This document shows, piece by piece, positions 2,564 to 52,624 of a stretch of 64,000 bases of DNA. Source of the DNA: Flavobacterium sp. WC2421. GTDB lineage: Bacteria; Bacteroidota; Bacteroidia; Flavobacteriales; Flavobacteriaceae. Below the pieces are notes generated by a model. It did no database searches. It was not told the origin of the DNA and saw nothing but the letters and a program-made list of their open reading frames with translations. Each line of letters starts with the position of its first letter. The stretch's first letter is position 1. Made by a program: the position numbers and the translations under genes. The DNA lies in NCBI RefSeq assembly GCF_040822115.1, contig NZ_CP162004.1:3705001-3769000 (forward strand), in the 5' to 3' direction.

Positions 2564-3094
2564 TTAGAAATTAATTTGTTGCACTTGACTTTCATTTATA
2601 TTTAAAGCAGCCATAACATCAGCATAATTATTTTTATTTACTGACGCCGAAAAACTTCCTGGAACTATTACCACTCTAAACGTCTGATTATTTATATAAG
2701 ATGGCGTTAAACTCAAATCATAGTTACCTCCTGCATAAATTGTGAAGTCTTCTTTACTAAAATCAAAATCATAATCTAGTTCTCCTTGTGGTAAAAAAAG
2801 AGTTCTTGGTATCAATTGCCAAATTGGTGTTGTAGAATCAATTGTTCCAGTCATTCTATAAATCAAAATAACATCCGAAGAATATATTTGAGGATTTAAA
2901 GCTCTATATATAGTATAGCCATCTGTAGCATTATAAGCAAAATTCACATTCTTAAGCTCAAAAACTTCAGAAATCAGACCATCTGCTCCATTTTGCCCAT
3001 CCAAACCATCATAACCTGGAGGCCCCTGTGGTCCTGAACAACTTGAAATTACAATCATTCCAATAACTGCCAAAAGTGTACTTATCTTTTTCAT
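2564..3094 (-). CDS. Lipoprotein with a short collagen-like segment
   Basis: This 176-aa protein starts with a lipoprotein signal peptide; the lipobox ends at Cys19 (VISSCS). Directly after it come six Gly-X-Y triplets (residues 21-38, GPQGPPGYDGLDGQNGADG), a collagen-like linker common in Bacteroidota surface lipoproteins. The remaining 135 residues are beta-rich, of unknown function, and end in a conserved tail (NKNNYADVMAALNINESQVQ then QINF). A paralogue without the collagen segment is the next gene (3249-3749). The enzyme or ligand is not recognised. It may be an outer-membrane-anchored surface protein, since no retention clue is visible. Confidence 0.75.
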   Translation of the reverse strand: MKKISTLLAVIGMIVISSCSGPQGPPGYDGLDGQNGADGLISEVFELKNVNFAYNATDGYTIYRALNPQIYSSDVILIYRMTGTIDSTTPIWQLIPRTLFLPQGELDYDFDFSKEDFTIYAGGNYDLSLTPSYINNQTFRVVIVPGSFSASVNKNNYADVMAALNINESQVQQINF

Positions 3095-3248: not shown

Positions 3249-3749
3249 TTAGAAGTTTATTTTCTGAATTTGACTCTCTTTTAGATTTAAAGCCGTAATA
3301 ACATCCGAATAACTATTTTTGTTAATTGAAGTTGCATAATTTGCGGGTACAATCACAATTCTTAAAACTTGATTTATTCTGAATTCGGCAGTTACATTTT
3401 GTAAATTAGATCCTATCATATAAATATCGACGTCAGTATTCGTATAATCATATTTATACCCAAAATTCAAACTACCATCATTATAATAATGTGTTTCGGG
3501 CAATAATTCCCATATATCACCTTGTGAATTAGCTCCCGATAGTCGATAAACTAAAACTACATCCGAAGAATAAATTCTAGGGTTAAAAGTTACCAGTTTA
3601 CCAAAATTATTGGTTGAATTAAACGAAGTGGTTATTTCAAACACTTCACTTGTAGTCGTTGTAGGTGCTATTTCAAAACTACCTGATGTGGTACAACTTT
3701 GCAAGGTTAACAATCCTGCAATAGCTAAAAGTGTAATTATCTTTTTCAT
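3249..3749 (-). CDS. Lipoprotein, paralogue of the 2564-3094 protein
   Basis: This 166-aa lipoprotein has its lipobox Cys at residue 19 (LQSC). From about residue 36 it aligns along its length with the neighbouring lipoprotein: SEVFEITTSFNS matches SEVFELKNVNFA, IYSSDVVLVYRL matches IYSSDVILIYRM, and the C-terminal NSYSDVITALNLKESQIQ matches NNYADVMAALNINESQVQ. The collagen-like insert is replaced by a Thr-rich linker (residues 29-35). The pair is best explained by tandem duplication. No known domain was recognised; location is inferred as membrane-anchored. Confidence 0.75.
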   Translation of the reverse strand: MKKIITLLAIAGLLTLQSCTTSGSFEIAPTTTTSEVFEITTSFNSTNNFGKLVTFNPRIYSSDVVLVYRLSGANSQGDIWELLPETHYYNDGSLNFGYKYDYTNTDVDIYMIGSNLQNVTAEFRINQVLRIVIVPANYATSINKNSYSDVITALNLKESQIQKINF

Positions 3750-4466: not shown

Positions 4467-6908
4467 CTATTTGGAAGAAATTACTTTTTTAGAACTACTC
4501 TCTCTATCAGTAGTCAACTTCACAATATACACTTGTTCTTTCATTTTACTTGCATTTAAATCTAGTGTAATTTCTTTGTTTAAATAACTATTGGTGTCTT
4601 TTTTTGAAAGTACCAAAATACCTTGTGCATTGAATACTTCAATCTTCACATCCGATACGTAATCAAAATTGTATTTGATTGTTAGCTGGTCTTTAATAGG
4701 AACAGGAAAAGCCTCAAAACTTGATTTTGTAGTCACCTTGTTTGTCAATACCTCTTTTGGAACAACTGGTTCAGCTGATTTAAGAGCTAACACTACTCCA
4801 CAGGTAGTTAAACCAGAACCGCAACCATTGACTGAAACAGAAACCTTATAGCCCGAACCCGCAGGTATATTACTAAATATAACGGGGGAGACTGCTGTCC
4901 CTATGTAAGTTGTTGCTGTAGTAAGCCCTACGATACCTACAATGGCATTTCCTTCTTTATTCAATACAGTATAAGTAGCTCCATTGATTACACCGGACAG
5001 AGTAATACTAAAAGTGGTTTGATCGCAAGTAGGAGCTGTGTATGAAACACTTGGCGGAGATGGATTTGCTATTACCGTTACTGTAGCTGTTTTTTGACAA
5101 CCATTACTATCCGTATATGTGATAATAGAAGTACCTGCTGACACACCTGTTACCAAACCTGTAGTACTTACAGTAGCAACACTTGGAGTGGCGGACACCC
5201 AGGCATTTGAAATAGCTGGAGTGCCAGATCCGGTCAACTGTGTTGTAAAACCTACACACATACTAAGAGTTCCTGTAATAGTGGGCAATGCATTTACCGT
5301 AACCGTAGCCGTTTTTTGACATCCATTGTTATTGGTATAAGTAATGACTGATGAACCTGCTGACACTCCTGTTACCAAACCTGCAGCGCTAACAGTAGCT
5401 ACACTTGGCGTAGCAGACACCCAAGGATTAGATCCTGCTGCAGTAACTGACCCTGTCAACTGTGTAGTAGAACCTATACATATACTAAGAGTACCGGTTA
5501 TCGTAGGTAATGCATTCACCATAATTTTAATCGATCCGGTGCAACTACCATCGGCACTACTATAATTGATAGTTTTCTCCCCAGCACCACCAGAATTAGA
5601 GGGTGTAAAATAATAGGGACCGCTACCACTTACACCAGGCCCACTAAAAGTACCTCCGCTGGGTGTAGCCGATAGAAGATAAGCTGTTGTATCATCTGCG
5701 CATTTAGCCGCAATAGGAGTAATATCTGTACTACCAAAATCAAAATCCACAGGAATAGGGGTTATAAAATCTTTAAGTGCAGCAGTCGAAGCTGCAGAAG
5801 CTTTTGTTTTAACCCATAATGTTTTTATTTTTAGACCACTACAACTAGCTCCCCCTCCCCCAAGTACCTGATTTAGAAGATAAGTCACATTGACAGCTGC
5901 TTCTACAAATGCATATTGTTGGTACGTATTCGTTCCAAATGCAGAATAAGGTACATTCAATTCAGCACCCGCTCTGTTAGTTTCGGCAAATGCATTAGCG
6001 CCCAAAGCTGCCAAAGTTACCAATTCATAAGACCACTTGGTTCCACTCTGTTTCCACTGGTAAATATATACAATCGGTTTTGAACCCCCATTGGTATACT
6101 CCATGGAAATGATTATATCGTCTTTTGTTCTACCGCCGCCATTTGCCTTACTCGCCAATGGAGTTCCTGTAAAAGTTCCATTATCATTTTGAACAACGGT
6201 ACCTTGCAATAATTCAAAATCTATATAACTGGTTCCATTAGTAGACTGACGGTCTCCGGAAATAAAGATCCACTGGTTGTTACTAGCGTCACGAGACACA
6301 TGATACAGGGCATTATCAATATCGTTTTTATCTGGCGCTGAGTTTGTAAACCATTTTAAATCTGACACATAATCGTTAAATTTGCTTCCATTTGTAAAAA
6401 CATCGTCATTAGAACCATAAGGCTCCTCTGTATCAACACGACCGCTTGTTTGAGCCGTAGCAGGTGCCAAAATATCACCCGCATTATCAAAGACAGAACC
6501 ACCTGAACCTGAACCTGAAGCTCCGGGATACCAATCGCCCTGATTAGCGGTGAAGGGAGTGGGACTAATTGGCGTATTAGCTCTTAACCCTCCATCAATG
6601 GCGAATCCTCCCGATGGTGGGTTTACATCGGCAAACTGCCCATAAATTTGTGAAGAAAAACCCAGGAAACTAATTAAAATCAATGTCACCAAGTTTCTAA
6701 AAGAAAGTAGAAATCCATCATATCCTGATTTTGAAATGCTATTACGTGAAGTCTTTTTTGTAAGATTTAAATTCTGAAATCTAGAATTTAAATAAGAAAA
6801 ATTAGGAATCAGAAAACCTAATGTGACCATACTATCTTTCGTTAAAAAAAAACTATTCACTTTACGGGATAAAAATTCGAAAAAATTCGAAATTGTAAAA
6901 TTTTTCAT
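4467..6908 (-). CDS. T9SS-secreted surface protein with Ig-like repeats and type A sorting domain
   Basis: This 813-aa secreted protein has an atypically long N-terminus: about 65 residues (including TISNFFEFLS and VNSFF) precede a hydrophobic signal segment near 66-90 ending SQIYG-QF. A domain of about 300 residues follows (contains SGDRQSTNGTSYIDFELLQ) that is shared with the 1843-aa neighbour. Two bacterial Ig-like (BIG2-type) repeats of about 75 residues follow (LPTITGTLS... VSATPSVATVS... TYTNNNGCQKTATVTV), then a type A T9SS sorting domain in the last 90 residues (FPVPIKDQLTIKYNF; KVISSK end). The Sec route would carry it to the periplasm and T9SS to the surface. The upstream start is favoured over internal Met27 because the N-terminus is conserved in the paralogue. 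Confidence 0.85.
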   Translation of the reverse strand: MKNFTISNFFEFLSRKVNSFFLTKDSMVTLGFLIPNFSYLNSRFQNLNLTKKTSRNSISKSGYDGFLLSFRNLVTLILISFLGFSSQIYGQFADVNPPSGGFAIDGGLRANTPISPTPFTANQGDWYPGASGSGSGGSVFDNAGDILAPATAQTSGRVDTEEPYGSNDDVFTNGSKFNDYVSDLKWFTNSAPDKNDIDNALYHVSRDASNNQWIFISGDRQSTNGTSYIDFELLQGTVVQNDNGTFTGTPLASKANGGGRTKDDIIISMEYTNGGSKPIVYIYQWKQSGTKWSYELVTLAALGANAFAETNRAGAELNVPYSAFGTNTYQQYAFVEAAVNVTYLLNQVLGGGGASCSGLKIKTLWVKTKASAASTAALKDFITPIPVDFDFGSTDITPIAAKCADDTTAYLLSATPSGGTFSGPGVSGSGPYYFTPSNSGGAGEKTINYSSADGSCTGSIKIMVNALPTITGTLSICIGSTTQLTGSVTAAGSNPWVSATPSVATVSAAGLVTGVSAGSSVITYTNNNGCQKTATVTVNALPTITGTLSMCVGFTTQLTGSGTPAISNAWVSATPSVATVSTTGLVTGVSAGTSIITYTDSNGCQKTATVTVIANPSPPSVSYTAPTCDQTTFSITLSGVINGATYTVLNKEGNAIVGIVGLTTATTYIGTAVSPVIFSNIPAGSGYKVSVSVNGCGSGLTTCGVVLALKSAEPVVPKEVLTNKVTTKSSFEAFPVPIKDQLTIKYNFDYVSDVKIEVFNAQGILVLSKKDTNSYLNKEITLDLNASKMKEQVYIVKLTTDRESSSKKVISSK

Positions 6909-7124
6909 GATAATAAAGTTTTAATACCATAAATTATTTAAAAGCAGGAAACTAGTGGACTTGGGAAAGAAAAACTTGCAGAAAAACAAAACATCTTCAA
7001 TAAATGGATTTATGAAGTAGTCCATCATCAAAAAGAAATTATATTGTAAAGAGCAATAATGGATTCTTTTATCTATCGAGTAGTCATTTTTATAAAACAA
7101 CTTAAATTTTAAAAAAATATAAAT
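6909..7124 (-). promoter_or_regulatory. 5' leader of the 813-aa T9SS protein with conserved hairpin element (copy 1)
   Basis: The element occupies about 6993-7045. On the minus strand it reads AATTTCTTTTTGATGATGG, four bases (ACTA), then a hairpin from 7017 to 6995 (CTTCA-bulge-AAAT paired with ATTTATTGAAG), about 90 nt before the start codon. The same layout occurs at 12821-12865 and 13004-13050. The rest of the leader also resembles that of the 1843-aa gene, for example the A/T-rich stretch before ATG with TTTATGGTAT. It may be a protein-binding site or a structured 5' UTR; its function is inferred from conservation only. Confidence 0.55.
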
Positions 7125-7152
7125 AAACCCCGAAAGTGTACTTTCGGGGTTT
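7125..7152 (-). terminator. Terminator of the 1843-aa T9SS protein gene
   Basis: A perfect 12-bp stem (AAACCCCGAAAG/CTTTCGGGGTTT) with a TGTA loop lies 59 bp beyond the stop codon at 7211, with an A-rich stretch that becomes U-rich on the minus strand. Confidence 0.88.
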
Positions 7153-7210
7153 AATCTTAATGATCTAATCCTTCTCTATATTTTATAGAATTAGATGGTT
7201 ATTAATACTA

Positions 7211-10200
7211 CTATTGTGAAGACATTACTTTTTTAGAGCTGCTTCCTCTATCAGTAGTCAGTTTTACAATAAAAACTTGCTCTTGACCTTTATTTATATT
7301 TAAGTCAAGTACTACGTTTTTGTTTAAAAAACTATTAGTATCTCTTTTAGAATACACCAAGTTTCCTTGTGTATTAAATACTTCAATTTTAACATCTGAT
7401 TGATAATCGAAACCGTATTTAATGGTTAATTGATCTTTAAAAGGAACTGGACTAGCAGTAAAACCTGCGATTTCAGTTTGTGTAACTTTAGATGTTAAAC
7501 TAAGTACTGGACAATTCAATGGCGCAACATTATAACCTACGAATATTCTACATTCATCAAAAGCATTATTAAGTAAATCTTCTAATCCTGCAATTGCTGA
7601 AAGAGAAAGACCGTTTGTTGATCCTCCACCTAATGCTTGGTTTGCTAAATCAAACAATCCTTGAACTGTAGGGTTACCTCCTAAGGCAGTAACAACATTG
7701 CTAGGAATAGTGTAATATTTATATTCATTATTCACTGTTCCGTCTAGATTACAAGTGCGTTCTTTTGCTATTTCTGATCCACAGCCTCCTTGAGGAACTG
7801 CAACAGCTAAAGTTCCTGCTTGCAAGGTAAAGTTACCAAGGTTACTATTGATTCCTATATTAAGACCTAGTGCAATGGTTTGAGCCAATAAAGTATTATT
7901 GATTCTACCATTTTTCAAGTAGCTAGAAGGCAAACTATTTATTTCATAGTTACCTGCTGATAAAACATAGCTACCTCCTCCTCCAGGCATTACAGAGATA
8001 AGAGCATTTATATCGGTCATATTATTCATAATATAAACAGAATGACCTAGTGTACCAATAGTCATTTTACCTCCATAAGAAGTCAATGCTTTAGCAATTA
8101 GCTCTTTTGTTGAGTATGAAATACCTTCGACACATGATTTACCTCCTACATTTCCATAATATCCTTGAGTATACGTACAGATCGCTTTAACACAAATTTG
8201 AGTTGTAACCAAAGCATCATCCGTAGCTGTACAACCATTGGCTGGATCAGTAACAGTGAGTGTATAAGTACCATCAGCATCAACTATTGGGCTCGCTGTA
8301 TCAGCTCCCGAAACAATATGACCTCCATTACTAGCAGTCCACAAGAATGTAGCTCCTATTGTTGTAGAAGATCCTGACAATCCTACAGTGGTGTTGCCGC
8401 ACAAAATTTGAGCATCAGCACCTGCATTTGCATTTGGTAGCGTATTGTTAACCGTTACAGTAACATCATCCGTAGCTGTACATCCAGATGTAGTATGTGT
8501 TTTTGTTACGGTATAAGTAGTAGTTACAGAAGGATTCACCATTGGGTTAGCACTTGTAGAAGTAAATCCTACTGGTGAAGATACCCAAGAATAAGTATAT
8601 CCTGCTGCCGCTACTTCTCCTATTAAACCACCTGATACATTAATCAAACAGTTTTTAGTGAAGTCGGCTCCTGCAACAGCTACAACTGTTGGTTTATTTA
8701 CCGTTACAGTCACATCATCTGTATCTGTACAACCAGATAAAGTATGTGTTTTTGTTACGGTATAAGTAGTAGTAACTGATGGATTCACAAATGGGTTTGC
8801 ACTTGTAGAAGTAAATCCTACTGGTGAAGATACCCAAGAATAAGTATATCCTGCTACCGCTACTTCTCCTATTGAACCACCTGATACATTAATCAAACAG
8901 TTTTTAGTGAAGTCGGCTCCCGCATTCGCTGTTACATCTGGTTTATTAACCGTTACAGTAACATCATCCGTATCTGTACAACCAGATGTAGTATGTGTTT
9001 TTGTTACGGTATAAGTAGTAGTTACAGAAGGATTCACCATTGGGTTAGCACTTGTAGAAGTAAATCCTACTGGTGAAGATACCCAAGAATAAGTATATCC
9101 TGCTACCGCTGCTTCTCCTATTGAACCACCTGATACATTGATCAAACAGTTTTTAGTGAAGTCATCTCCTGCAACAGCTACAACTGTTGGTTTATTTACC
9201 GTTACAGTCACATCATCTGTATCTGTACAACCAGATAAAGTTTGTGTTTTTGTTACGGTATAAGTAGTAGTAACTGATGGATTCACAAATGGGTTTGCAC
9301 TTGTAGAAGTAAATCCTACTGGTGAAGATACCCAAGAATAAGTATATCCTGCTACCGCTACTTCTCCTATCGAACCACCTGATACATTAATCAAACAGTT
9401 TTTAGTAAAGTCGGCTCCCGCATTCGCTGTTACATCTGGTTTATTAACCGTTACTGTTACATCATCTGTATCTGTACAACCAGATGTAGTATGTGTTTTT
9501 GTTACGGTATAAGTAGTAGTTACAGAAGGATTCACCATTGGGTTAGCACTTGTAGAAGTAAATCCTACTGGTGAAGATACCCAAGAATAAGTATATCCTG
9601 CTGCCGCTGCTTCTCCTATTAAACCACCTGATACATTAATCAAACAGTTTTTAGTGAAGTCGGCTCCTGCAACAGCTACAACTGTTGGTTTATTTACCGT
9701 TACAGTCACATCATCTGTATCTGTACAACCAGATAAAGTATGTGTTTTTGTTACGGTATAAGTAGTAGTAACTGATGGATTCACAAATGGGTTTGCACTT
9801 GTAGAAGTAAATCCTACTGGTGAAGATACCCAAGAATAAGTATATCCTGCTACCGCTACTTCTCCTATTGAACCACCTGATACATTAATCAAACAGTTTT
9901 TAGTGAAGTCGGCTCCCGCATTCGCTGTTACATCTGGTTTATTAACCGTTACAGTAACATCATCCGTATCTGTACAACCAGATGTAGTATGTGTTTTTGT
10001 TACGGTATAAGTAGTAGTTACAGAAGGATTCACCATTGGGTTAGCACTTGTAGAAGTAAATCCTACTGGTGAAGATACCCAAGAATAAGTATATCCTGCT
10101 GCCGCTGCTTCTCCTATTGAACCACCTGATACATTGATCAAACAGTTTTTAGTGAAGTCGGCTCCTGCAACAGCTACAACTGTTGGTTTATTTACCGTTA

Positions 10201-12742
10201 CAGTCACATCATCTGTATCTGTACAACCAGATAAAGTTTGTGTTTTTGTTACGGTATAAGTAGTAGTAACTGATGGATTCACAAATGGGTTTGCACTTGT
10301 AGAAGTAAATCCTACTGGAGAAGATACCCAAGAATAAGTATATCCTGCTACCGCTACTTCTCCTATTGAACCACCTGATACATTAATCAAACAGTTTTTA
10401 GTGAAGTCGGCTCCCGCATTCGCTGTTACATCTGGTTTATTAACCGTTACTGTTACATCATCTGTATCTGTACAACCAGATGTAGTATGTGTTTTTGTTA
10501 CGGTATAAGTAGTAGTTACAGAAGGATTCACCATTGGGTTAGCACTTGTAGAAGTAAATCCTACTGGTGAAGATACCCAAGAATAAGTATATCCTGCTGC
10601 CGCTGCTTCTCCTATTAAACCACCTGATACATTGATCAAACAGTTTTTAGTGAAGTCATCTCCTGCAACAGCTACAACTGTTGGTTTATTTACCGTTACT
10701 GTAACATCATCTGTATTTGTACAACCAGATAAAGTATGTGTTTTTGTTACGGTATAAGTAGTAGTAACTGATGGATTCACAAATGGGTTTGCACTTGTAG
10801 AAGTAAATCCTACTGGTGAAGATACCCAAGAATAAGTATATCCTGCTACCGCAACCTCGCCTATAGAACCACCTGATACATTAATCAAACAGTTTTTAGT
10901 AAAGTCGGCTCCCGCATTCGCTGTTACATCTGGTTTATTAACCGTTACTGTTACATCATCTGTATCTGTACAACCAGATGTAGTATGTGTTTTTGTTACG
11001 GTATAAGTAGTAGTTACAGAAGGATTCACCATTGGGTTAGCACTTGTAGAAGTAAATCCTACTGGTGAAGACACCCAAGAATAAGTATATCCTGCTGCCG
11101 CTGCTTCTCCTATTGAACCTCCTGATGTATTAATCAGACAGTTTTTAGTGAAGTCATCTCCTGCCACAGCTACAACTGTTGGTTTATTCACTGTTACAAT
11201 CACTTCATCAGTATCACTACAACTTGTACCTGTTTTAGTTTTAGTAACAGTATATGTAGTGTTTACTAATGGATTTGCGATTGGATTTGCAATATTTGTT
11301 ACAGATAATCCTTCAGCTGGGCTCCATGAATAGGTAAATCCAGCTTGTGGAGTTTCTCCTATTTCTTTACCATCAGGATTGCTAATACATGTTTTAGTAA
11401 AATCAGCTCCAGCAAAAGCTTTTGGAGTAAAATCCAAATCTAATTGAATTGGTCTTCCAGGGAAATCTTTTAATTCAGATTGACTTGAGTTTCCTGAACT
11501 TCTAGTTCTAATAAACAAGGTACTTATCGTAAAGCATTCACTACTTGTGGCTTTAAATACCTGAGTCAAATTTATACCACCTTCAGCCCATTGATTTGGT
11601 GCATAAGAACCTGTAGCTCCACTTCCATAAACATCAAAAGGTACATCAGTAGTTGAAGTATTATTAGTGCAAAAAATATTTCCTTTAATTCCTGGAACTG
11701 AATAGTTAACACCATCAAAAACAACTACGTATTCAAAACCACCGCCTGCTTTTTCAGACCATTTTTGAATTACGACAGTAGCATCACCACCACCCTGAGT
11801 AAACTCAATAGTAATTAACAAATCGCCTAAGGTACGACCACCATCTGTTCCCTCAGATATAAAGCTACCACTTCCACCAGTAATTGGTGCTGTATTAATT
11901 AAGGGATCGATCACTCCAGGATTGGGTAGTGCTCCAGTTATAGTTAAGCGTTTTTGTAAAAACTCAAAATCGATATAACTACTACCATTAGTTACCTGAC
12001 GGTCACCCGCAAAAAGGCACCACAAATCTTTAGAATTTCCTGTAATAGGAAAACTAAAGCTTGTACCATTAGTGCTTATTCCTCCATCCATACCATCTTT
12101 TCCATAACTAAAATGAGCACCACAATTTTGAATTTCATTTTTGTTCGGTGAAGATCCTGGACCCCAAGTATACGTATTTGGGTTATCATTTATTTTATTG
12201 GAACTCGTGAATATCGTTGGATCATTTTGAAACGGATCCTTTAGAAAAAAGGTAACTGGAACAGGATCAATTGTTCCAGGATAAAGAAGACTTCCATCTG
12301 CAAGGTTAAGTATCCCATGGTTAGTGCCATCAATAGGATAGTATTCTTGAGGATTGGTACCTGGAATGGGTTTACCACTTAAATAATTTTTTCTATCAAA
12401 CAAATCTCCAACATTTAAGTAGATGGAACTGGTACCAGTAGGTTCATGAGCCCAACCATCACCGTCAATTCCATCACCTAATAATGGATATTGTACAGGT
12501 ACAACCCCTTTAATAGACTGTGCATTTGTCGTATATCCCGTCACTAAAATTGCCACTAAAATAAGTGGCATAGCAAACCACTGGCGCCAAAAGTAGGACC
12601 AGTAATCCGAAATAAAATCAATAGCTCTTCTCTCCTTAAATTTTAAAAAATTTAATTTAGAAACTGTTTTTTTCGATATAAAGAAACTCATTACTTCATT
12701 AGACAAAACATCGAAAAAATTCGAAATTGTATTCTTTTTCAT
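7211..12742 (-). CDS. Giant T9SS-secreted repeat protein (1843 aa), type A sorting domain
   Basis: This secreted surface protein starts with a long basic/aromatic N-terminal extension (TISNFFDVLS, VMSFF) before a hydrophobic signal segment at about 57-74 (ending TTNAQ). Residues 75-430 form the domain shared with the 813-aa neighbour (GDRQVTNGSSYIDFEFLQ). One divergent Ig/PKD-like repeat (about 431-521) leads into 11 near-identical 83-residue repeats (522-1433), each with one Cys pair (NCLIN and SGCTDTDD), then a divergent repeat (about 1434-1515), a unique domain (about 1516-1745) and a type A T9SS sorting domain (FTASPVPFKDQLTIKYGF; KVMSSQ end). It is probably an adhesin or matrix fibre of the cell surface; the ligand is unknown. 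The N-terminal similarity to the paralogue supports the start. Confidence 0.88.
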   Translation of the reverse strand: MKKNTISNFFDVLSNEVMSFFISKKTVSKLNFLKFKERRAIDFISDYWSYFWRQWFAMPLILVAILVTGYTTNAQSIKGVVPVQYPLLGDGIDGDGWAHEPTGTSSIYLNVGDLFDRKNYLSGKPIPGTNPQEYYPIDGTNHGILNLADGSLLYPGTIDPVPVTFFLKDPFQNDPTIFTSSNKINDNPNTYTWGPGSSPNKNEIQNCGAHFSYGKDGMDGGISTNGTSFSFPITGNSKDLWCLFAGDRQVTNGSSYIDFEFLQKRLTITGALPNPGVIDPLINTAPITGGSGSFISEGTDGGRTLGDLLITIEFTQGGGDATVVIQKWSEKAGGGFEYVVVFDGVNYSVPGIKGNIFCTNNTSTTDVPFDVYGSGATGSYAPNQWAEGGINLTQVFKATSSECFTISTLFIRTRSSGNSSQSELKDFPGRPIQLDLDFTPKAFAGADFTKTCISNPDGKEIGETPQAGFTYSWSPAEGLSVTNIANPIANPLVNTTYTVTKTKTGTSCSDTDEVIVTVNKPTVVAVAGDDFTKNCLINTSGGSIGEAAAAGYTYSWVSSPVGFTSTSANPMVNPSVTTTYTVTKTHTTSGCTDTDDVTVTVNKPDVTANAGADFTKNCLINVSGGSIGEVAVAGYTYSWVSSPVGFTSTSANPFVNPSVTTTYTVTKTHTLSGCTNTDDVTVTVNKPTVVAVAGDDFTKNCLINVSGGLIGEAAAAGYTYSWVSSPVGFTSTSANPMVNPSVTTTYTVTKTHTTSGCTDTDDVTVTVNKPDVTANAGADFTKNCLINVSGGSIGEVAVAGYTYSWVSSPVGFTSTSANPFVNPSVTTTYTVTKTQTLSGCTDTDDVTVTVNKPTVVAVAGADFTKNCLINVSGGSIGEAAAAGYTYSWVSSPVGFTSTSANPMVNPSVTTTYTVTKTHTTSGCTDTDDVTVTVNKPDVTANAGADFTKNCLINVSGGSIGEVAVAGYTYSWVSSPVGFTSTSANPFVNPSVTTTYTVTKTHTLSGCTDTDDVTVTVNKPTVVAVAGADFTKNCLINVSGGLIGEAAAAGYTYSWVSSPVGFTSTSANPMVNPSVTTTYTVTKTHTTSGCTDTDDVTVTVNKPDVTANAGADFTKNCLINVSGGSIGEVAVAGYTYSWVSSPVGFTSTSANPFVNPSVTTTYTVTKTQTLSGCTDTDDVTVTVNKPTVVAVAGDDFTKNCLINVSGGSIGEAAVAGYTYSWVSSPVGFTSTSANPMVNPSVTTTYTVTKTHTTSGCTDTDDVTVTVNKPDVTANAGADFTKNCLINVSGGSIGEVAVAGYTYSWVSSPVGFTSTSANPFVNPSVTTTYTVTKTHTLSGCTDTDDVTVTVNKPTVVAVAGADFTKNCLINVSGGLIGEVAAAGYTYSWVSSPVGFTSTSANPMVNPSVTTTYTVTKTHTTSGCTATDDVTVTVNNTLPNANAGADAQILCGNTTVGLSGSSTTIGATFLWTASNGGHIVSGADTASPIVDADGTYTLTVTDPANGCTATDDALVTTQICVKAICTYTQGYYGNVGGKSCVEGISYSTKELIAKALTSYGGKMTIGTLGHSVYIMNNMTDINALISVMPGGGGSYVLSAGNYEINSLPSSYLKNGRINNTLLAQTIALGLNIGINSNLGNFTLQAGTLAVAVPQGGCGSEIAKERTCNLDGTVNNEYKYYTIPSNVVTALGGNPTVQGLFDLANQALGGGSTNGLSLSAIAGLEDLLNNAFDECRIFVGYNVAPLNCPVLSLTSKVTQTEIAGFTASPVPFKDQLTIKYGFDYQSDVKIEVFNTQGNLVYSKRDTNSFLNKNVVLDLNINKGQEQVFIVKLTTDRGSSSKKVMSSQ
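8444..11179 (-). repeat. Eleven 249-bp coding repeats alternating types A and B (498-bp higher-order unit)
   Basis: Eleven 83-codon units fill residues 522-1433 of the giant surface protein. Type A (six copies) begins TVVAVAG, has NPMVNPS and HTTSGC. Type B (five copies) begins DVTANAG, has NPFVNPS and TLSGC. They alternate strictly A-B-A-B, so the true DNA repeat is a 498-bp dimer (for example the same stretch starts at 8703 and 9201). Copies are almost identical at DNA level, with a few scattered differences (GDD/GAD, GSI/GLI, TQT/THT), which points to recent expansion or gene conversion. Confidence 0.95.
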
Positions 12743-12910
12743 AATAATAGTATTTTTATGCCATACGTTATATTAAGTAGGATATTGAAAGAATGGGGGA
12801 ATCAAATGTCTAAACATCATCTTCATAGCTGATTATGAAGTGTACCATCATCCAAAGGAGTAATGTAATTCAAACATGAAATACAATCAACCTCTAGCAA
12901 TATTTGCGTC
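12743..12910 (-). promoter_or_regulatory. 5' leader of the 1843-aa T9SS protein with conserved hairpin element (copy 2)
   Basis: On the minus strand the element reads GGATGATGG, four bases (TACA), then a perfect 7-bp hairpin with a 6-nt loop (CTTCATA/TATGAAG, 12840-12821), about 80 nt upstream of the ATG. It matches the copy before the 813-aa gene in order and spacing. The stem sequence below CTTCA differs but still pairs. Confidence 0.55.
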
Positions 12911-14419
12911 ACTTTTTGCAAATGACTTTTAAAATTATGAGTAACAAATAGGTTCTATCAAATGTTTTCAAACTTGGGGAGAAAACTAGTTAAAAATCAA
13001 AATAACTTCAGAATTTATATTCTTGAAGTTTTCCATCATTTAAAGAAATTATTAAACAATAAAACAGCATCCTTTTACAAACCAAATATTTATTAATTAA
13101 TAAAAATTGAAAACTTAGTTTAAAAAATTGAAAATGAAGACTGATAAAAGCTTCTATGCTTGATATAGAAACTTGCAAAAAAATAAAATCCAAAAAATTG
13201 ATTCTCAAAGTTTCATTTTCTTTAAAAGCACTTTTGGAAAAAATCGTAATAATGCTTTCTTTGGTGTTTAAAAGCTACTTTAAATTACAACCTATCCCGA
13301 ATTATTTGTTAATCAAAGTTAAAGGATTAACTAAAAAAAGGGAAGAAAAGGCGGTAAAACAAGACCAAATTCTATTTTTAACGATGAGGAACATTGTTCG
13401 TTAAGAAAAGCATTACATCAATAAAATATTAATAAAAAACTACTGGTTAACTTATTGTTTATCAATACATTATGAATAATATTACATAAATTTTGTTAAA
13501 CATAAATTCGTGTTAAACTTCTAAAAAATAATCTAACATATTCTTATTCACTTGATTTTTATATTGATTTTTCCATAAAAAAATTAGAAAAATTTTTCAT
13601 AATCTTAAATTAAAAAAAAGCAACACACTTTTTTAAATTTCCAAATAAGTGTTCAAAATTTTAACATAATTATTCATTTGAAAAATGGAGGCAAACAAAA
13701 AACAATAAAAAAGACATTTTTACTAAAAAGAGAAATCACTTTACGAACATAAACACATCAATAAACATTCTTGTAAAAATTTGAATCTACAGCTACAAAA
13801 TAAACTTCATAACACTTTGAAAATCAACAACATAATACAAAATCGTTTTTAATTGATTCTTTTTTAAATAAAAAAGAATTAGTCTAATAATATGTCATTC
13901 CATTATTAACAAGTTTATTGTACTAATATCTTCATAAAAAGGATTCATTCAGTTCCCGTATTAATCTGCTTAATACAATTCCAAAAACAGTTTAAATAAT
14001 TCCTTTTATTTATAGTTATGTTATCCAAATTTGTTTTTTTATAGTTCTAACTTTTCAAAAAAAACTTCCTCTTCTTATGAGGCTCCTTAAAGCACTGTAT
14101 TTATTTTTTGGCTTATTGATTAGTAAAATAAGTTCCTTCAAAAGCTTCAATTGTTGCAATTGTTTATTTTTTGCATAAAATACAACCAGTATTATTTAGT
14201 TGCAAAACAAATTATTCATTGTTTTGAATTTAAAAACACTCCTTTTTTTTAACATAACAAAAAATATGCTTAACTTTAAGTTCCCTTAGTCGTAAATAAA
14301 AAACACACAACTAGCTGTACAACAAATACTTAGTAGCTAAAATATTACTTTTTTATTTCTACAGTTTTTCCTCTTATTTTATTAATTGAATTTAGATTAC
14401 AATTAAAAAAACACTTACG
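12911..14419. other. 1.5-kb AT-rich gene-free region with an orphan leader copy
   Basis: No convincing gene is visible. It contains the third copy of the leader element at 13004-13050 (hairpin 13006-13028, CCATCAT at 13033-13039), with similarity to leader 1 extending on both sides (the AATTTCTTT run, and CCCAAGT on the minus strand about 35 nt beyond the hairpin). The rest (13060-14419) is very AT-rich with homopolymer runs and only short, unconvincing open frames. The stretch 14300-14419 must hold the promoter of the SDR gene at 14420. The region may be the remains of a deleted third paralogue or a long regulatory zone. Confidence 0.5.
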
Positions 14420-15704: not shown

Positions 15705-18700
15705 TTACATATTTCTTCTGTATTGTCCACCCACTTCAAATAAAGCGGCAGTTATTTGTCCTAACGTACATACCTTAGTTGCTTCCATTAAGTGGTCAAA
15801 TAAGTTTTCATTTTCAATTGCTGCGTCTTGTATGCGGTCCAATTGTTCTTTTACTTGCATTGCATTGGCTTTATGTAAGTTTTCCAAGGTATGAATCTGG
15901 AATCGCTTTTCTTCTTCCGTTGCACGAATCACTTCAGCAGGAATCACTGTTGGCGACCCTTTGGAACTTAAAAACGTATTTACTCCTATGATTGGGAATT
16001 CCCCAGTATGTTTCAACGTTTCATAATACAAACTTTCTTCTTGAATTTTAGAACGTTGGTACATGGTTTCCATAGCACCAAGAACTCCTCCTCTTTCAGT
16101 TATTCTATCAAATTCTTGCAGAACAGCTGCTTCAACAAGATCCGTTAATTCTTCAATGATAAACGAACCTTGAATTGGATTTTCATTTTTGGCTAGACCT
16201 AACTCTTTATTAATAATCAATTGGATTGCCATGGCACGACGTACTGATTCTTCTGTAGGTGTTGTAATCGCTTCATCATACGCATTGGTATGCAAAGAAT
16301 TACAGTTGTCATAAATAGCATATAATGCTTGTAATGTGGTACGGATATCATTGAAATCTATCTCTTGCGCATGTAAAGAACGTCCAGACGTTTGAATATG
16401 GTATTTCAACATTTGCGCTCTTTCGTTAGCTCCGTATTTAACTTTCATGGCTTTCGCCCAAATTTTACGTGCCACACGACCAATAACTGCATATTCAGGA
16501 TCTACTCCGTTCGAAAAGAAGAACGATAAGTTAGGTCCAAAATCATTGATACTCATTCCACGACTCAAATAGTATTCTACATACGTAAATCCATTTGAAA
16601 GTGTAAATGCCAATTGTGTTATTGGGTTTGCACCCGCCTCAGCAATATGGTATCCCGATATTGAAACCGAATAAAAATTACGAACATTGTTAGTAATAAA
16701 ATATTCTTGAACGTCTCCCATTAAACGCAAAGCAAATTCGGTAGAGAAAATACACGTATTCTGCGCTTGATCTTCTTTTAAAATATCAGCCTGAACCGTT
16801 CCACGAACTTGTGAAAGTGTTCTAACTTTAATTTCATTATATACGTCTAAAGGCAATACTTGATCTCCTGTTATTCCTAAAAGGAACAAACCTAAACCAT
16901 TATTCCCTTCGGGTAAATCACCATTGTAAACAGGGCGATTAACTCCTTTTTCTTTATATATTTTGCTAATTTTAGCTTCTACTTCTTTTTCTAAATCATT
17001 AGCTTTGATGTACAACTCACATTGTTGATCAATAGCAGCATTCATAAAGAAACCAAGCAGCATAGGCGCTGGTCCATTGATTGTCATACTTACCGAAGTC
17101 ATAGCATGTACCAAATCAAAACCTGAATACAATTTTTTAGCATCATCTAAACAACAAATAGAAACTCCAGCATTACCAATTTTTCCGTAAATATCAGGAC
17201 GCAAATGCGGATCATTACCGTACAAAGTCACACTGTCAAAAGCAGTTGATAAACGCTTAGCCGGTAAACCTGCACTTACATAATGAAAACGCTTGTTAGT
17301 TCTTTCCGGTCCACCTTCACCTGCAAACATACGTGATGGATCTTCTCCTTCTCTTTTAAAAGGATACAATCCGGAGGTAAAAGGGAATTCTCCTGGTACA
17401 TTTTCTTGTAAACACCATCTCAATATATCTCCCCAAGCTTCGTACTTAGGCAAGGCAATTTTTGGAATTTGGGAGTGCGATAACGATTCCGAATGTGTTT
17501 TTATTTCAATAACCTTATCTCTAACTTTAAACGAGTAGATCGGGTTTTTATATTTGTTTACTTTTTCATCCCAAGTCAAGATTACTTCCCAATTGTAAGG
17601 ATCTAAATCCATTTTTACTTTATCAAATTGATTCAATAAAAGGTTAAGAAAGATATTATTTTCATCGTGCTCTTTGATTGCACTTGGATAAACCGAAGTA
17701 TCGTCAAGTCCAGTTTTAGTAATCACTGGAACATTTCCAGAAACCGATTCTATAGTTTTGAAAATACCATACAATTTTTGAGCTACTTTTTGTTGGCTCA
17801 AAGCGGTTTCATCATATTTTCTGTTGCTTTCGGCAATTTCAGACAAATAACGGGTTCTGTGAGGTGGAATTACGAAGATCTTCTCACTCATTTCACGCGT
17901 TACTTCAAAGGTTGATTTCAAGTCGGAATCCGTTTTCTCTACAATTTTATCCATAATGGATTTGTAAAGCGTATTCATTCCCGGATCATTGAACTGTGAA
18001 GCAATAGTTCCAAAAACAGGCATATCATCTGGATTTGCATCCCATAGATTATGATTGCGTTGGTATTGTTTTTTTACATCACGAATAGCATCTAATGCGC
18101 CACGTTTATCAAATTTATTCAATGCTACTAAATCAGCAAAATCAAGCATGTCGATTTTTTCTAATTGTGTTGCAGCACCAAATTCTGGTGTCATTACGTA
18201 TAACGAAACATCAGAATGGTCCATAATCTCGGTATCCGATTGACCAATTCCTGAAGTTTCCAAAATGATGATATCGTATTTTGCCGCTTTGATTACTTGA
18301 ATCGCATCAGCAACATATTTTGATAAGGCTAGATTGGATTGACGTGTTGCTAGAGAACGCATATACACTCTAGGACTATTAATCGCATTCATACGAATTC
18401 GATCTCCAAGAAGCGCTCCTCCTGTTTTACGTTTTGATGGATCAACCGAAATTAAACCAATGGTTTTCTCTGGAAAATCGACTAGAAAACGACGAACTAA
18501 TTCATCTACTAATGATGATTTTCCAGCTCCACCAGTACCAGTAATTCCTAGAACGGGTGTTTTGCAGTTTTTATTTATTTCATGAATGGCATCCAATGCT
18601 GGTTTCGCAATTTCAGGAAAATTCTCTGCCGCCGAAATTATTCTAGCAATAGCTGTTGGATTTTTGGAAGCCAATTGCGCTACTTCATCCGTTAATTTGT

Positions 18701-19145
18701 CTCCAGTAGGAAAGTCTGATTGTTGAACTAAATCATTAATCATTCCTTGTAATCCCATCGAACGCCCATCATCTGGCGCATAAATTCGGGTGATTCCGTA
18801 AGCTTGTAATTCCGCAATTTCAGAAGGCAAAATTACTCCTCCTCCTCCTCCGAAAATTTTAATATGTCCTGCTCCTTTTTCTTTTAGCAAATCATACATG
18901 TATTTAAAATACTCATTATGGCCTCCTTGATAGGAAGTCAAAGCAATTGCATTAGCATCTTCTTGAATAGCGGTATTCACCACTTCTTCAACACTACGAT
19001 CATGCCCTAAATGAATTACCTCTACTCCTGTAGACTGAATAATTCTTCTCATGATATTTATAGCTGCATCATGACCATCAAATAATGAGGCTGCAGTGAC
19101 AATTCTTACTTTATTCTTAGGAATATACGGTGTTTGTGGATTCAT
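15705..19145 (-). CDS. icmF: Fused isobutyryl-CoA mutase with G-protein chaperone domain
   Basis: This 1146-aa enzyme interconverts isobutyryl-CoA and n-butyryl-CoA using adenosylcobalamin. The order of domains is that of IcmF: N-terminal B12-binding domain with DGHD at 23-26 (His25 is the lower cobalt ligand) and GVEVIHLG, a MeaB-like GTPase domain with P-loop [12 protein letters not shown] at 200-211, then the TIM-barrel mutase domain to the C-terminus. Two substrate-selecting positions agree with IcmF and not with methylmalonyl-CoA mutase: Phe in KRFHYVS where the latter has Tyr, and Gln in AQNTCIF where it has Arg. The built-in G domain loads and protects the cofactor. It is a single gene with its own terminator. 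Public annotation often calls it methylmalonyl-CoA mutase family. Confidence 0.93.
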
Positions 19146-19246
19146 TTTGAGAATATGATAATTTTAAGGGTGCAATTTACAAAAATTTTTAATGATTGTT
19201 CTATGTTCCTTTGAGATGTTAATAAAAAAGCAATAATCTTCTAAAT

Positions 19247-19315
19247 TAGCCCCGATGGAAGTGGCATCCCACGCTTTTGGGCGTGGATACAACGGACAGC
19301 GGGACAATTGTTCCT
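19247..19315 (+). ncRNA. Structured intergenic element, copy A (possible Flavo-1-like RNA)
   Basis: The 5' box TAGCCCCGATGGAAGTGGCAT and 3' box ATACAACGGACAGCGGGA flank an inner stem CCACGC/GCGTGG. The boxes are shared with four other copies in this window, while the inner stem is different in sequence. It lies 89 bp before the DUF4197 lipoprotein gene. Confidence 0.55.
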
Positions 19316-24244: not shown

Positions 24245-24662
24245 TTTTCTTGTAGTTGTGCGACAAAATTACAAACATAGAGTTAATATCGGTTAGAATA
24301 CTACGATAAAATTCCATTTAATTTACAAAATTAAAATCCGTAGTTCTCAGTTTAATGAAATCTTTACTACCCAACAAATTGACTATTTGTAAGTTCTTTT
24401 TTTAATACCATACAAATGAAATGGAACTGTAAAAGCGTAAAACAACTGTTAAAAAAAACACAAAATACAAGAAACTGCTACTAGAGTCTATTTTAATAAC
24501 CAAAAAAATCTCACAAATAATCCGCTAATAATCAACACACAACTATTATTTTATTGTCGAAAATTTCATAATTTCACGCCTAAAATTTAAAAAAATGATA
24601 GTACGAATGGGTATTCAATAAATTTAGTATTAACATTTTTATATCTTTACTAATTAACAAAA
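24245..24662. other. Intergenic region between pyrF and the AraC-type regulator
   Basis: These 418 bp separate two divergent genes and must hold both promoters. The sequence is AT-rich with A runs. No hairpin, repeat or clear consensus promoter stands out apart from TATCTTTAC near 24641-24650, about 15 bp before the regulator start. Confidence 0.4.
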
Positions 24663-30066: not shown

Positions 30067-30168
30067 GGAGCTATTTCCTGCTATCCGCTGTATTCCCGAT
30101 AATAAAAACTAAGGCTAAAAAAAGCCTAGTTTTTCTAAATCGGGAGATGCCGCTACTATCAGGGCTAG
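30067..30168 (-). ncRNA. Structured intergenic element, copy B (possible Flavo-1-like RNA)
   Basis: On the minus strand it starts CTAGCCCTGATAGTAGCGGC and ends ATACAGCGGATAGCAGGAAA plus TAGCTCC. The inner part folds as CCCGAT/ATCGGG, AAAACTA/TAGTTTT and GGCT/AGCC. It resembles copies C and D closely and lies between prfA and a lipoprotein gene. Confidence 0.6.
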
Positions 30169-30209
30169 CGCATTTGTTATAGAAAGATTAATACAATTCC
30201 ACAAACAAA

Positions 30210-31813: not shown

Positions 31814-31869
31814 ACGACACCCTTCAACCTCCTATTGCATTAGTTATTATTGAAAATAAAACGTTCTCA

Positions 31870-31962
31870 CTAGCCCTGATGGAAGCGGCATCTCCCGATT
31901 TAGAAAAACAAGGCTTTTTTAGCCGTAGTTTTTATTATTGGGAATACAGCGGACAGCAGGAC
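31870..31962 (+). ncRNA. Structured intergenic element, copy C (possible Flavo-1-like RNA)
   Basis: It starts CTAGCCCTGATGGAAGCGGC and ends ATACAGCGGACAGCAGGA. The inner region pairs CCCGAT with ATTGGG and AAAAAC/GGCT with AGCC/GTTTTT. It lies between the YdeI-like gene and topB. Confidence 0.6.
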
Positions 31963-32099
31963 CATTCGTTTTTATAAATCCTATTTATTCTGCTCCTAAA
32001 AAACCTGGCAATTTACTACCCGTTCATAACTCCCGACGATTTTTTTTTAATACCAATTTCTAAATTCCTAATTTGCGCCATCAAAATCAGTAGAAGAAA

Positions 32100-34420: not shown

Positions 34421-34521
34421 GGAGCTTCTTCCAGCTATCCGCTATATTCCCGATCATAAAAACTACGGCTGAAAAAGCCTTGTTTTTCAAAATCGGGAGA
34501 TGCCGCTTTTATCTGGGCTAG
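34421..34521 (-). ncRNA. Structured intergenic element, copy D (possible Flavo-1-like RNA)
   Basis: On the minus strand it starts CTAGCCCAGATAAAAGCGGC and ends ATATAGCGGATAGCTGGAAG plus AAGCTCC. The inner CCCGAT/ATCGGG stem and GGCT/AGCC core are kept. It starts 14 bp after the topB stop and may also act as its transcription end. Confidence 0.6.
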
Positions 34522-34578
34522 TTGTGTATATTTTTCCTAATTTTGTATCCGTTCAACAAACAATAATTCGAAATCAAG

Positions 34579-52515: not shown

Positions 52516-52541
52516 AAGGATTACTTAAAACAAATAATGCC

Positions 52542-52624
52542 CTAGCCCTGATTGAAGTGAAAATCCTTTTTATTTTTATTTTCAAAAATAAAAAGATTGC
52601 AGCGAAAAGCAGGAAATAGCTCCT
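52542..52624 (+). ncRNA. Structured intergenic element, copy E (possible Flavo-1-like RNA)
   Basis: It starts CCTAGCCCTGATTGAAGTGA and ends GCAGCGAAAAGCAGGAAATA plus GCTCCT. The inner stem is unlike the other copies (CTTTTTATTTTT paired with AAAAATAAAAAG) but is perfectly complementary. It ends 12 bp before the cysS start codon, so it could affect cysS translation. Confidence 0.55.

Follow-up and report, generated by a model that had tools for sequence, protein, structure and literature searches.

Tandem hairpin units in the predicted mRNA leaders of a class of T9SS surface-protein genes in Flavobacterium

Introduction

In the genome of Flavobacterium sp. WC2421, two large genes for T9SS surface proteins are preceded by copies of the same short hairpin, and the question that this locus raises is what the element is and at which level, DNA or RNA, it would act. 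To our knowledge, little is known about post-transcriptional regulation of T9SS surface proteins in Bacteroidota. A preliminary description of the 64,000 nucleotides analysed here, called the window throughout (contig NZ_CP162004.1, positions 3,705,001 to 3,769,000), had reported three hairpins preceded by ATGATGG and had proposed either a structured 5' UTR or a protein-binding site. Sequence comparison, drawing on conservation, covariation, the strand bias of deviations, tandem arrangement, position and gene specificity, supports that interpretation in part. The three sites are real, while the larger unit to which they belong, its tandem arrays, an operator-like repeat and a -7 box had been missed. 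So had the absence of a recognisable promoter for the second gene alone, which does have a unit. The reading that we prefer, and to which we give about an even chance, is that the element is a unit of a structured mRNA leader in which a single promoter is followed by one to four or more tandem units and then by a surface-protein gene.

The element in the window

All three copies of ATGATGG, four further bases and a CTTCA/TGAAG hairpin lie on the minus strand where they had been reported (7028-6995, 12851-12821 and 13039-13006). The pattern ATGATGG-N4-CTTCA-N(6-25)-TGAAG has exactly these three matches in the window, against a mean of 0.00 in 100 dinucleotide shuffles, and the same three and no others in the whole genome (3,833,975 bases, one contig), where the next-best matches of a covariance model, R2, have E values of 0.38 or worse. 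The lower stem differs between copies as first described; a T is bulged out in copy 1 and an A in copy 3. When folded alone, copies 2 and 3 form the described hairpin and copy 1 prefers another pairing, of the ATGATGG region with TCCATT. The features of the locus, all on the minus strand and given in the direction of reading, are as follows.

13402..13409, minus: TTTTCTTA box, conserved upstream of the direct repeats (sequence)
13360..13387, minus: operator-like direct repeat TCATCG...TTGGTCTTG, period about 20 bases, a module shared with 43 of 65 array-first copies
13314..13321, minus: predicted -7 box TAACTTTG (TAnnTTTG, consensus from passages of PMC9723704)
13148..13174, minus: hairpin AAGTTTCTAT-loop-ATAGAAGCTT, possible remnant of a further, degenerate upstream unit (fold -8.3 kcal/mol)
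13006..13039, minus: copy 3, ATGATGG, N4 and hairpin, distal unit of P0002
12821..12851, minus: copy 2, ATGATGG, N4 and hairpin, proximal unit of P0002
7211..12742, minus: P0002, surface protein of 1843 aa with a T9SS type A CTD
7128..7149, minus: intrinsic terminator CCCCGAAAG-TACA-CTTTCGGGG after P0002 (-18.3 kcal/mol)
6995..7028, minus: copy 1, ATGATGG, N4 and hairpin, single unit of P0001, behind the terminator
4467..6908, minus: P0001, Ig-like (Big_2) surface protein of 813 aa with a T9SS type A CTD

Copies 2 and 3 are thus tandem units of one gene, 188 bases apart, and copy 2 ends 78 bases before the start of P0002 at 12742; P0001, with its one unit, starts at 6908, 86 bases after the end of copy 1. 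P0002 has two good units and a possible remnant, the candidate at 13148..13174 giving no match by R2 at E 0.01. Its promoter module at 13409-13314 places the transcript start, by prediction, near 13307 and implies a leader of about 565 bases. Upstream of copy 1 both an operator match and a -7 box match were looked for and neither was found. Elsewhere in the window the combined operator and box pattern matches once, on the plus strand at 24554-24625, where it adjoins no unit.

The predicted structure of P0001 (mean pLDDT 67.9, pTM 0.40) and its PDB matches, which are of low TM and comprise Aureispira GhpA and Ig-repeat proteins, say only that it is an Ig-like repeat surface protein. Relatives of the N-terminal half of P0001 (window 4467-6908) occur in the Chitinophagaceae; in Flavisolibacter nicotianae the identity is about 60% and covers half of the query. 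As the leader was found only in Flavobacterium, the protein may be a passenger acquired by transfer.

Distribution among genomes

The exact pattern, searched in 150 genomes of the genus, has matches in 11, and in five of these (G042, G032, G115, G023 and G092) the flanks suggest chance or coding matches. The check put forward with the preliminary description, a covariance-model search of flavobacterial genomes, was run with a first model built from 14 copies that included the three of the window. It gave at least 106 matches in at least 38 of 398 Flavobacterium genomes under strict filters and with no more than 10 candidates scored in any genome, a lower bound, and these many further copies lie mostly upstream of T9SS-cargo genes and covary. 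In a sample of the family, 397 genomes over 237 genera, the only covariance-model matches were those in the genome of the window itself. A stricter DNA pattern run over a collection of 84,980 species found 18 stretches, 17 of them in Flavobacterium records and one in an 'uncultured Bacteroidetes' MAG; the records with the element include F. granuli, F. caseinilyticum, F. rhamnosiphilum, F. xinjiangense and F. fluvii.

The statement that the element has no established name agrees with what we found: in the window and seven further loci no Rfam 15 family scored above its gathering threshold for it, the sole trace being a sub-threshold His_leader match outside the element, and among papers judged by title and the start of the abstract there was no description of it. 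Flavo-1 RNA (RF01705) is a flavobacterial RNA motif with five copies in the window (52540-52620, 19244-19310, 30070-30170, 31868-31967 and 34424-34523), none of which overlaps these leaders.

Anatomy of the unit and of its arrays

A model termed R1, applied to 51 fetched stretches, gave 116 matches, or 114 after an overlap between two stretches was removed. The core drawn from 105 of the 114 copies is TATCCTTTTG-RTGATGG-n-GTACTTCAT-loop-TGAAG-RTGTTTTGTTTTT, in which GA.GG and CTTCA are the least variable parts and TCCTTTTG, just before ATGATGG, shows strong conservation; the stretch that starts with ATGATGG and closes with the 3' arm is 26 to 43 bases long. This core sits in a unit of about 200 bases (about 180-210) that is repeated in tandem, with one to four units detected per gene: of 49 neighbouring pairs less than 1000 bases apart, 42 are spaced at 178-213 bases and seven at 292-376 bases, and among 67 groups of copies there are 32 with one copy, 26 with two, eight with three and one with four. 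R2, built from the first matches, raised the number of matches to 123; among the added units, some fall within long gaps and others lie upstream of first copies. The distance from the hairpin to the first long ORF, for the 56 gene-proximal copies, is 59-95 bases in 34, 127-172 bases in 16 and 252-375 bases in six. In ten genomes the units lie on the strand of the gene in all 20 CTD genes that have them. There is moderate support for a second hairpin that lies 45-95 bases before ATGATGG.

As many copies read ATG ATG GNN TAC TTC, with both ATG present in 48 of 89, the motif might be taken for the start codon pair of a leader peptide (MM[EVDA]YF...). The core lengths do not keep a frame, falling into the three classes with 41, 39 and 9 of the 89 copies, neither ATG is present in eight of 89, and the conservation of the G and the A in GA.GG exceeds that of the remaining letters of the start codons. 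A leader peptide was rejected because the reading frame is not kept, and we regard it as extremely unlikely.

A promoter-like module upstream of the arrays

Passages of PMC9723704 give TAnnTTTG as the -7 consensus of sigma-A promoters in F. psychrophilum and 24 bases as the median length of its 5' UTRs. Of 65 arrays, 35 have this box within the 250-40 bases upstream of the first unit (2.93 per kb), as against four of the 49 gaps between units (0.64 per kb, in windows that are somewhat shorter). The narrower form TA[AT]CTTT[GA] precedes the first unit in 30 of 65 arrays, and a direct repeat, TTRTCG...TTRTCT with a period of about 20 bases, lies upstream of 43 of 65, each against 0.05 expected per window; both patterns were derived from the same sequences, so that their enrichment is partly circular. 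The constant distance between them is less so: in 41 of 46 operator matches a TAnnTTT box follows 64-69 bases after the operator start. The operator pattern has no match in 22 of the 65 arrays, and a loose version of it gave fewer matches in 12 genomes than its reversed control, so that it defines no regulon and true sites are recognised by their position only.

These observations bear on the number of promoters. We first held a model of tandem promoters, in which every unit would have a promoter, TATCCTTTTG being its -7 box, and the hairpin would form the very 5' terminus of the mRNA and stabilise it in the manner of ompA. The tandem arrangement and the conservation of the bases just upstream of ATGATGG would suit this model, and non-canonical boxes are conceivable; the spacing of TAnnTTTG is not found at the units, where TATCCTTTTG is wrongly spaced for a sigma-A promoter, and the model was dropped because canonical -7 boxes are rare between units. 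We now consider it unlikely. That boxes lie upstream of the first unit and rarely between units suggests instead that the array would be one long leader, with the core hairpin predicted, from the positions of the boxes, about 90-100 bases inside the transcript.

An upstream terminator lies in range of nine of the 65 arrays. In six of the nine, P0001 among them, the terminator is 93-133 bases before the unit and there is no operator match; another array behind a terminator (L086+17568) does have a -7 box match, unlike P0001. Second genes that lack a recognisable promoter keep their own unit near the start codon, and this suggests post-transcriptional action on each cistron. Such per-cistron placement would favour an action on mRNA stability or translation.

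Covariation and the strand of the structure

The preliminary description had read the stem changes as compensatory. Three copies alone could not prove covariation, and it is the 122 distinct rows of the alignment A6 (123 matches) that support it. In A6, 89.6% of cells pair, as compared with at most 63.4% when the partner is slid by 1 to 3 columns, and eight of nine pairs have changed on both sides, in 55 double-change cells. None of 500 shuffles reached any of these measures, a result that overstates independence because the copies are related by descent, which weakens all such probabilities. Since A6 had been fitted to the hairpin structure, a second control without that fit was used, in which the inner 3' arms were swapped among 88 distinct hairpins; pairing was worse than with their own arms in 2000 of 2000 trials.

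Deviations from Watson-Crick pairing indicate which strand is concerned. Read on the strand of the gene, the 88 distinct hairpins have 51 G.U against four A.C. Transitions in the flanking columns are skewed in the same direction, 1.8- and 2.8-fold (A>G 122/1261 versus T>C 67/1261; C>T 78/291 versus G>A 47/485), and against a background of 3:1 the excess of 51 of 55 still has a p of 7e-4, a 2:1 background having been tested too; the five outer pairs alone, at 18:2 (18 of 20), are not significant against 3:1 (p 0.09). The ratio is 34:2 in proximal and 16:2 in distal copies, in a ranking that took the first long ORF and gave a few copies the wrong rank. The sense fold is the more stable one in 81 of 91 copies and the less stable in seven. 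As the excess of G.U over A.C goes beyond the flanking skew, the element most likely works as mRNA-sense RNA, judged by its sequence.

The hairpin upstream of ATGATGG leans the same way, with sense over antisense by 60 to 29 in a fold test and G.U over A.C by 131 to 69 in a stem test; a control region gave a sense lean of 55 to 39 in the former and 147 to 123, not significant, in the latter. That this hairpin, too, looks like sense-strand RNA argues further against a promoter in each unit. The core hairpin is AU-rich, and MAFFT with RNAalifold over a long region returned hairpin B plus one short, spurious-looking pairing only. Hairpins P (with a C-rich loop) and C are appealing in single copies and weakly or inconsistently supported, as tests over all copies disagree: their mean fold z-scores are near those of the flanks, and P shows no preference for sense folding and C a slight one against it, while both stems exceed shuffles in score and have a mild excess of G.U (p 0.02 each). 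The hairpin-B row of that stem-shuffle test, which retained six sequences after a length filter, is not relied on.

The same data weigh upon the proposal of a protein-binding site, which stands as a possibility at the level of RNA and not as a rigid DNA palindrome of two half-sites. A double-stranded operator, bound once per unit by a dimeric regulator on CTTCA/TGAAG and ATGATGG, would account for the strong conservation of GA.GG and CTTCA, and arrays are a common form for operators. Its half-sites would lie 5 to 22 bases apart with no fixed spacing, the inner stem covaries, and a G.U to A.C ratio of this size is unexpected for DNA, even with the flanks skewed in the same direction. The spacing and the asymmetry led us to reject a DNA palindrome, and an operator of this kind appears improbable. 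The structured 5' UTR of the preliminary description, still a predicted one, fares better, being supported by the covariation, by the excess of G.U over A.C and by a promoter-like module that is found upstream of the array and rarely inside it.

The downstream gene class

Large proteins with a long N-terminal region lie downstream of most units, and their CTD, compared in 35 sequences, shares 47-79% identity with the CTD of P0002. Among 64 ORFs behind units, 42 were complete in their stretches and 40 were scanned after two with masked letters had been dropped; the T9SS type A domain (TIGR04183 / PF18962) was found in the C-termini of 35. The five others are, by low identity, two polyketide synthase-like proteins (L083 and L089) and one MauG-like protein (L093), together with two ORFs that lack a recognisable CTD end (L052 and L091).

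The link to T9SS surface proteins that had been drawn from the window holds, for one CTD subclass and not for cargo in general. A profile of this CTD finds 22 genes in ten genomes, and 20 of them, matched by hand, have at least one unit upstream, directly so in 18. One CTD gene of G292 is separated from its units by an IS3-like insertion (integrase core and transposase HTH; L087 1016-2412, between a two-unit leader and its surface-protein gene). Two units of G292 lie directly before a secreted-looking ORF of 175 aa that is followed by another CTD gene, of 2500 aa (L147 993-1278 and 1314-1841), so that the small ORF is either another target of the leader or a split first cistron. The two CTD genes without a unit encode a protein of 7602 aa with a weaker CTD match (G036) and one that may be cut by the contig end (G017). 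Conversely, of 41 unit matches in the ten genomes, 39 lie upstream of CTD genes, one before a surface ORF cut by the contig end and one elsewhere (E 0.057).

The association extends over the 398 genomes. Of the 33 genomes whose CTD match reaches E 1e-40 or lower, a limit set after the fact, 31 have a unit at the first threshold; of 43 with a match between 1e-40 and 1e-20, two do. The two others of the 33 have weak R2 matches, in G275 (E 0.003) beside its CTD gene and in G342 (E 1.5e-4) on a contig different from that of the CTD match. Among the 322 genomes without a CTD match five have a unit; four of these are fragmented assemblies, and in the fifth, G123, the match adjoins a MauG-like gene and is probably false.

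Units also lie upstream of a type III polyketide synthase-like gene (L083 658-927 and L089 549-646), which has a chalcone/stilbene synthase C-terminal domain and a weak StlD/DarB match, is a frequent neighbour of the arrays (18 loci) and at L089 is preceded by an operator and -7 box match as well. With the small ORF of G292, these cases indicate that the element is not strictly limited to large surface proteins.

As the unit-bearing genes have their N-terminal region and CTD in common, and at one locus their neighbours too, the leaders might be without function and homologous merely because the genes are paralogues. The hairpin, GA.GG and the module are kept while the flanks diverge, the covariation and the strand asymmetry suggest that pairing is under selection, and distal units keep these features too; such hitch-hiking seems very unlikely to us.

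Proposed mode of action and comparison with known systems

In our preferred reading of a structured leader, a single promoter would consist of the direct-repeat operator followed by the TAnnTTTG -7 box, and the direct repeats may bind an activator. The long leader, probably transcribed as one piece, would carry one to four or more tandem units of about 180-210 bases, each made up of GATGG, four variable bases and the CTTCA/TGAAG hairpin, preceded, less certainly, by another hairpin, and would run into the gene of a large T9SS type A surface protein. The hairpin units may then act post-transcriptionally, as a multivalent binding or protection site that determines how stable each cistron is or how well it is translated. 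The data agree poorly with a leader peptide, with a rigid DNA palindrome and with one promoter per unit. The tandem hairpin leader looks like an undescribed control of the timing and amount of surface proteins. More speculatively, it could be a genus-specific RNA device in which the number of units, from one to four or more, sets surface-protein output through multivalent binding of an RNA-binding factor or a ligand, with a promoterless second cistron using its own unit; we put this forward tentatively, as a conjecture.

Several known systems invite comparison. Hairpins in the leaders of abundant outer-surface proteins are familiar from the 5' stabilising hairpins of the ompA type and from S-layer gene leaders. 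Hairpins of the ompA type stand at the extreme 5' end, and those described here are repeated and predicted to lie well inside the transcript. The structured 5' cis-regulatory regions of F. psychrophilum (PMC9723704) are likewise candidate leaders of the same genus without Rfam hits and with the TAnnTTTG box; the conserved examples in the main-text passages of that paper are pheA, hisG, ftsY, acsA, alaS and rimP, and those passages contain no tandem arrays or surface-protein leaders of this kind.

Tandem riboswitches, the subject of PMC9481103, are likewise repeated structured RNA units in one mRNA leader. It is therefore conceivable that the units are tandem aptamers of a riboswitch or attenuator which sense a small molecule and switch expression; the long structured leader has that form, and the absence of an Rfam match would be compatible with a new class. 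These arrays differ from tandem riboswitches: as many as four units were detected, repeated about every 200 bases, with a single simple hairpin strongly supported and no known ligand. Only one hairpin is strongly supported, without a complex junction, no expression platform was identified, and the element is genus-restricted and tied mainly to one protein class, all of which makes a riboswitch distinctly unlikely.

Whatever the mechanism, an array built of modules, their number differing from gene to gene and from species to species, would be an unusual design for a bacterial leader. The element is also a concrete one: some 120 natural variants are at hand, the genes that it precedes form a defined class, and a promoter and an operator have been predicted. 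It offers a handle for finding an RNA-binding factor.

The genomic neighbourhood

Relatives of three ORFs of the window recur beside the arrays of other species, namely a glutamine synthetase (367-1380; six loci), TerC (1513-2466; 13 loci) and a fused methylmalonyl-CoA mutase (15705-19145; five loci), and the locus therefore looks syntenic. Downstream of P0001, two small ORFs of 176 and 166 aa (window 2564-3094 and 3249-3749) have no Pfam match, and each has relatives at 17 other fetched loci, as a conserved companion of the gene class.
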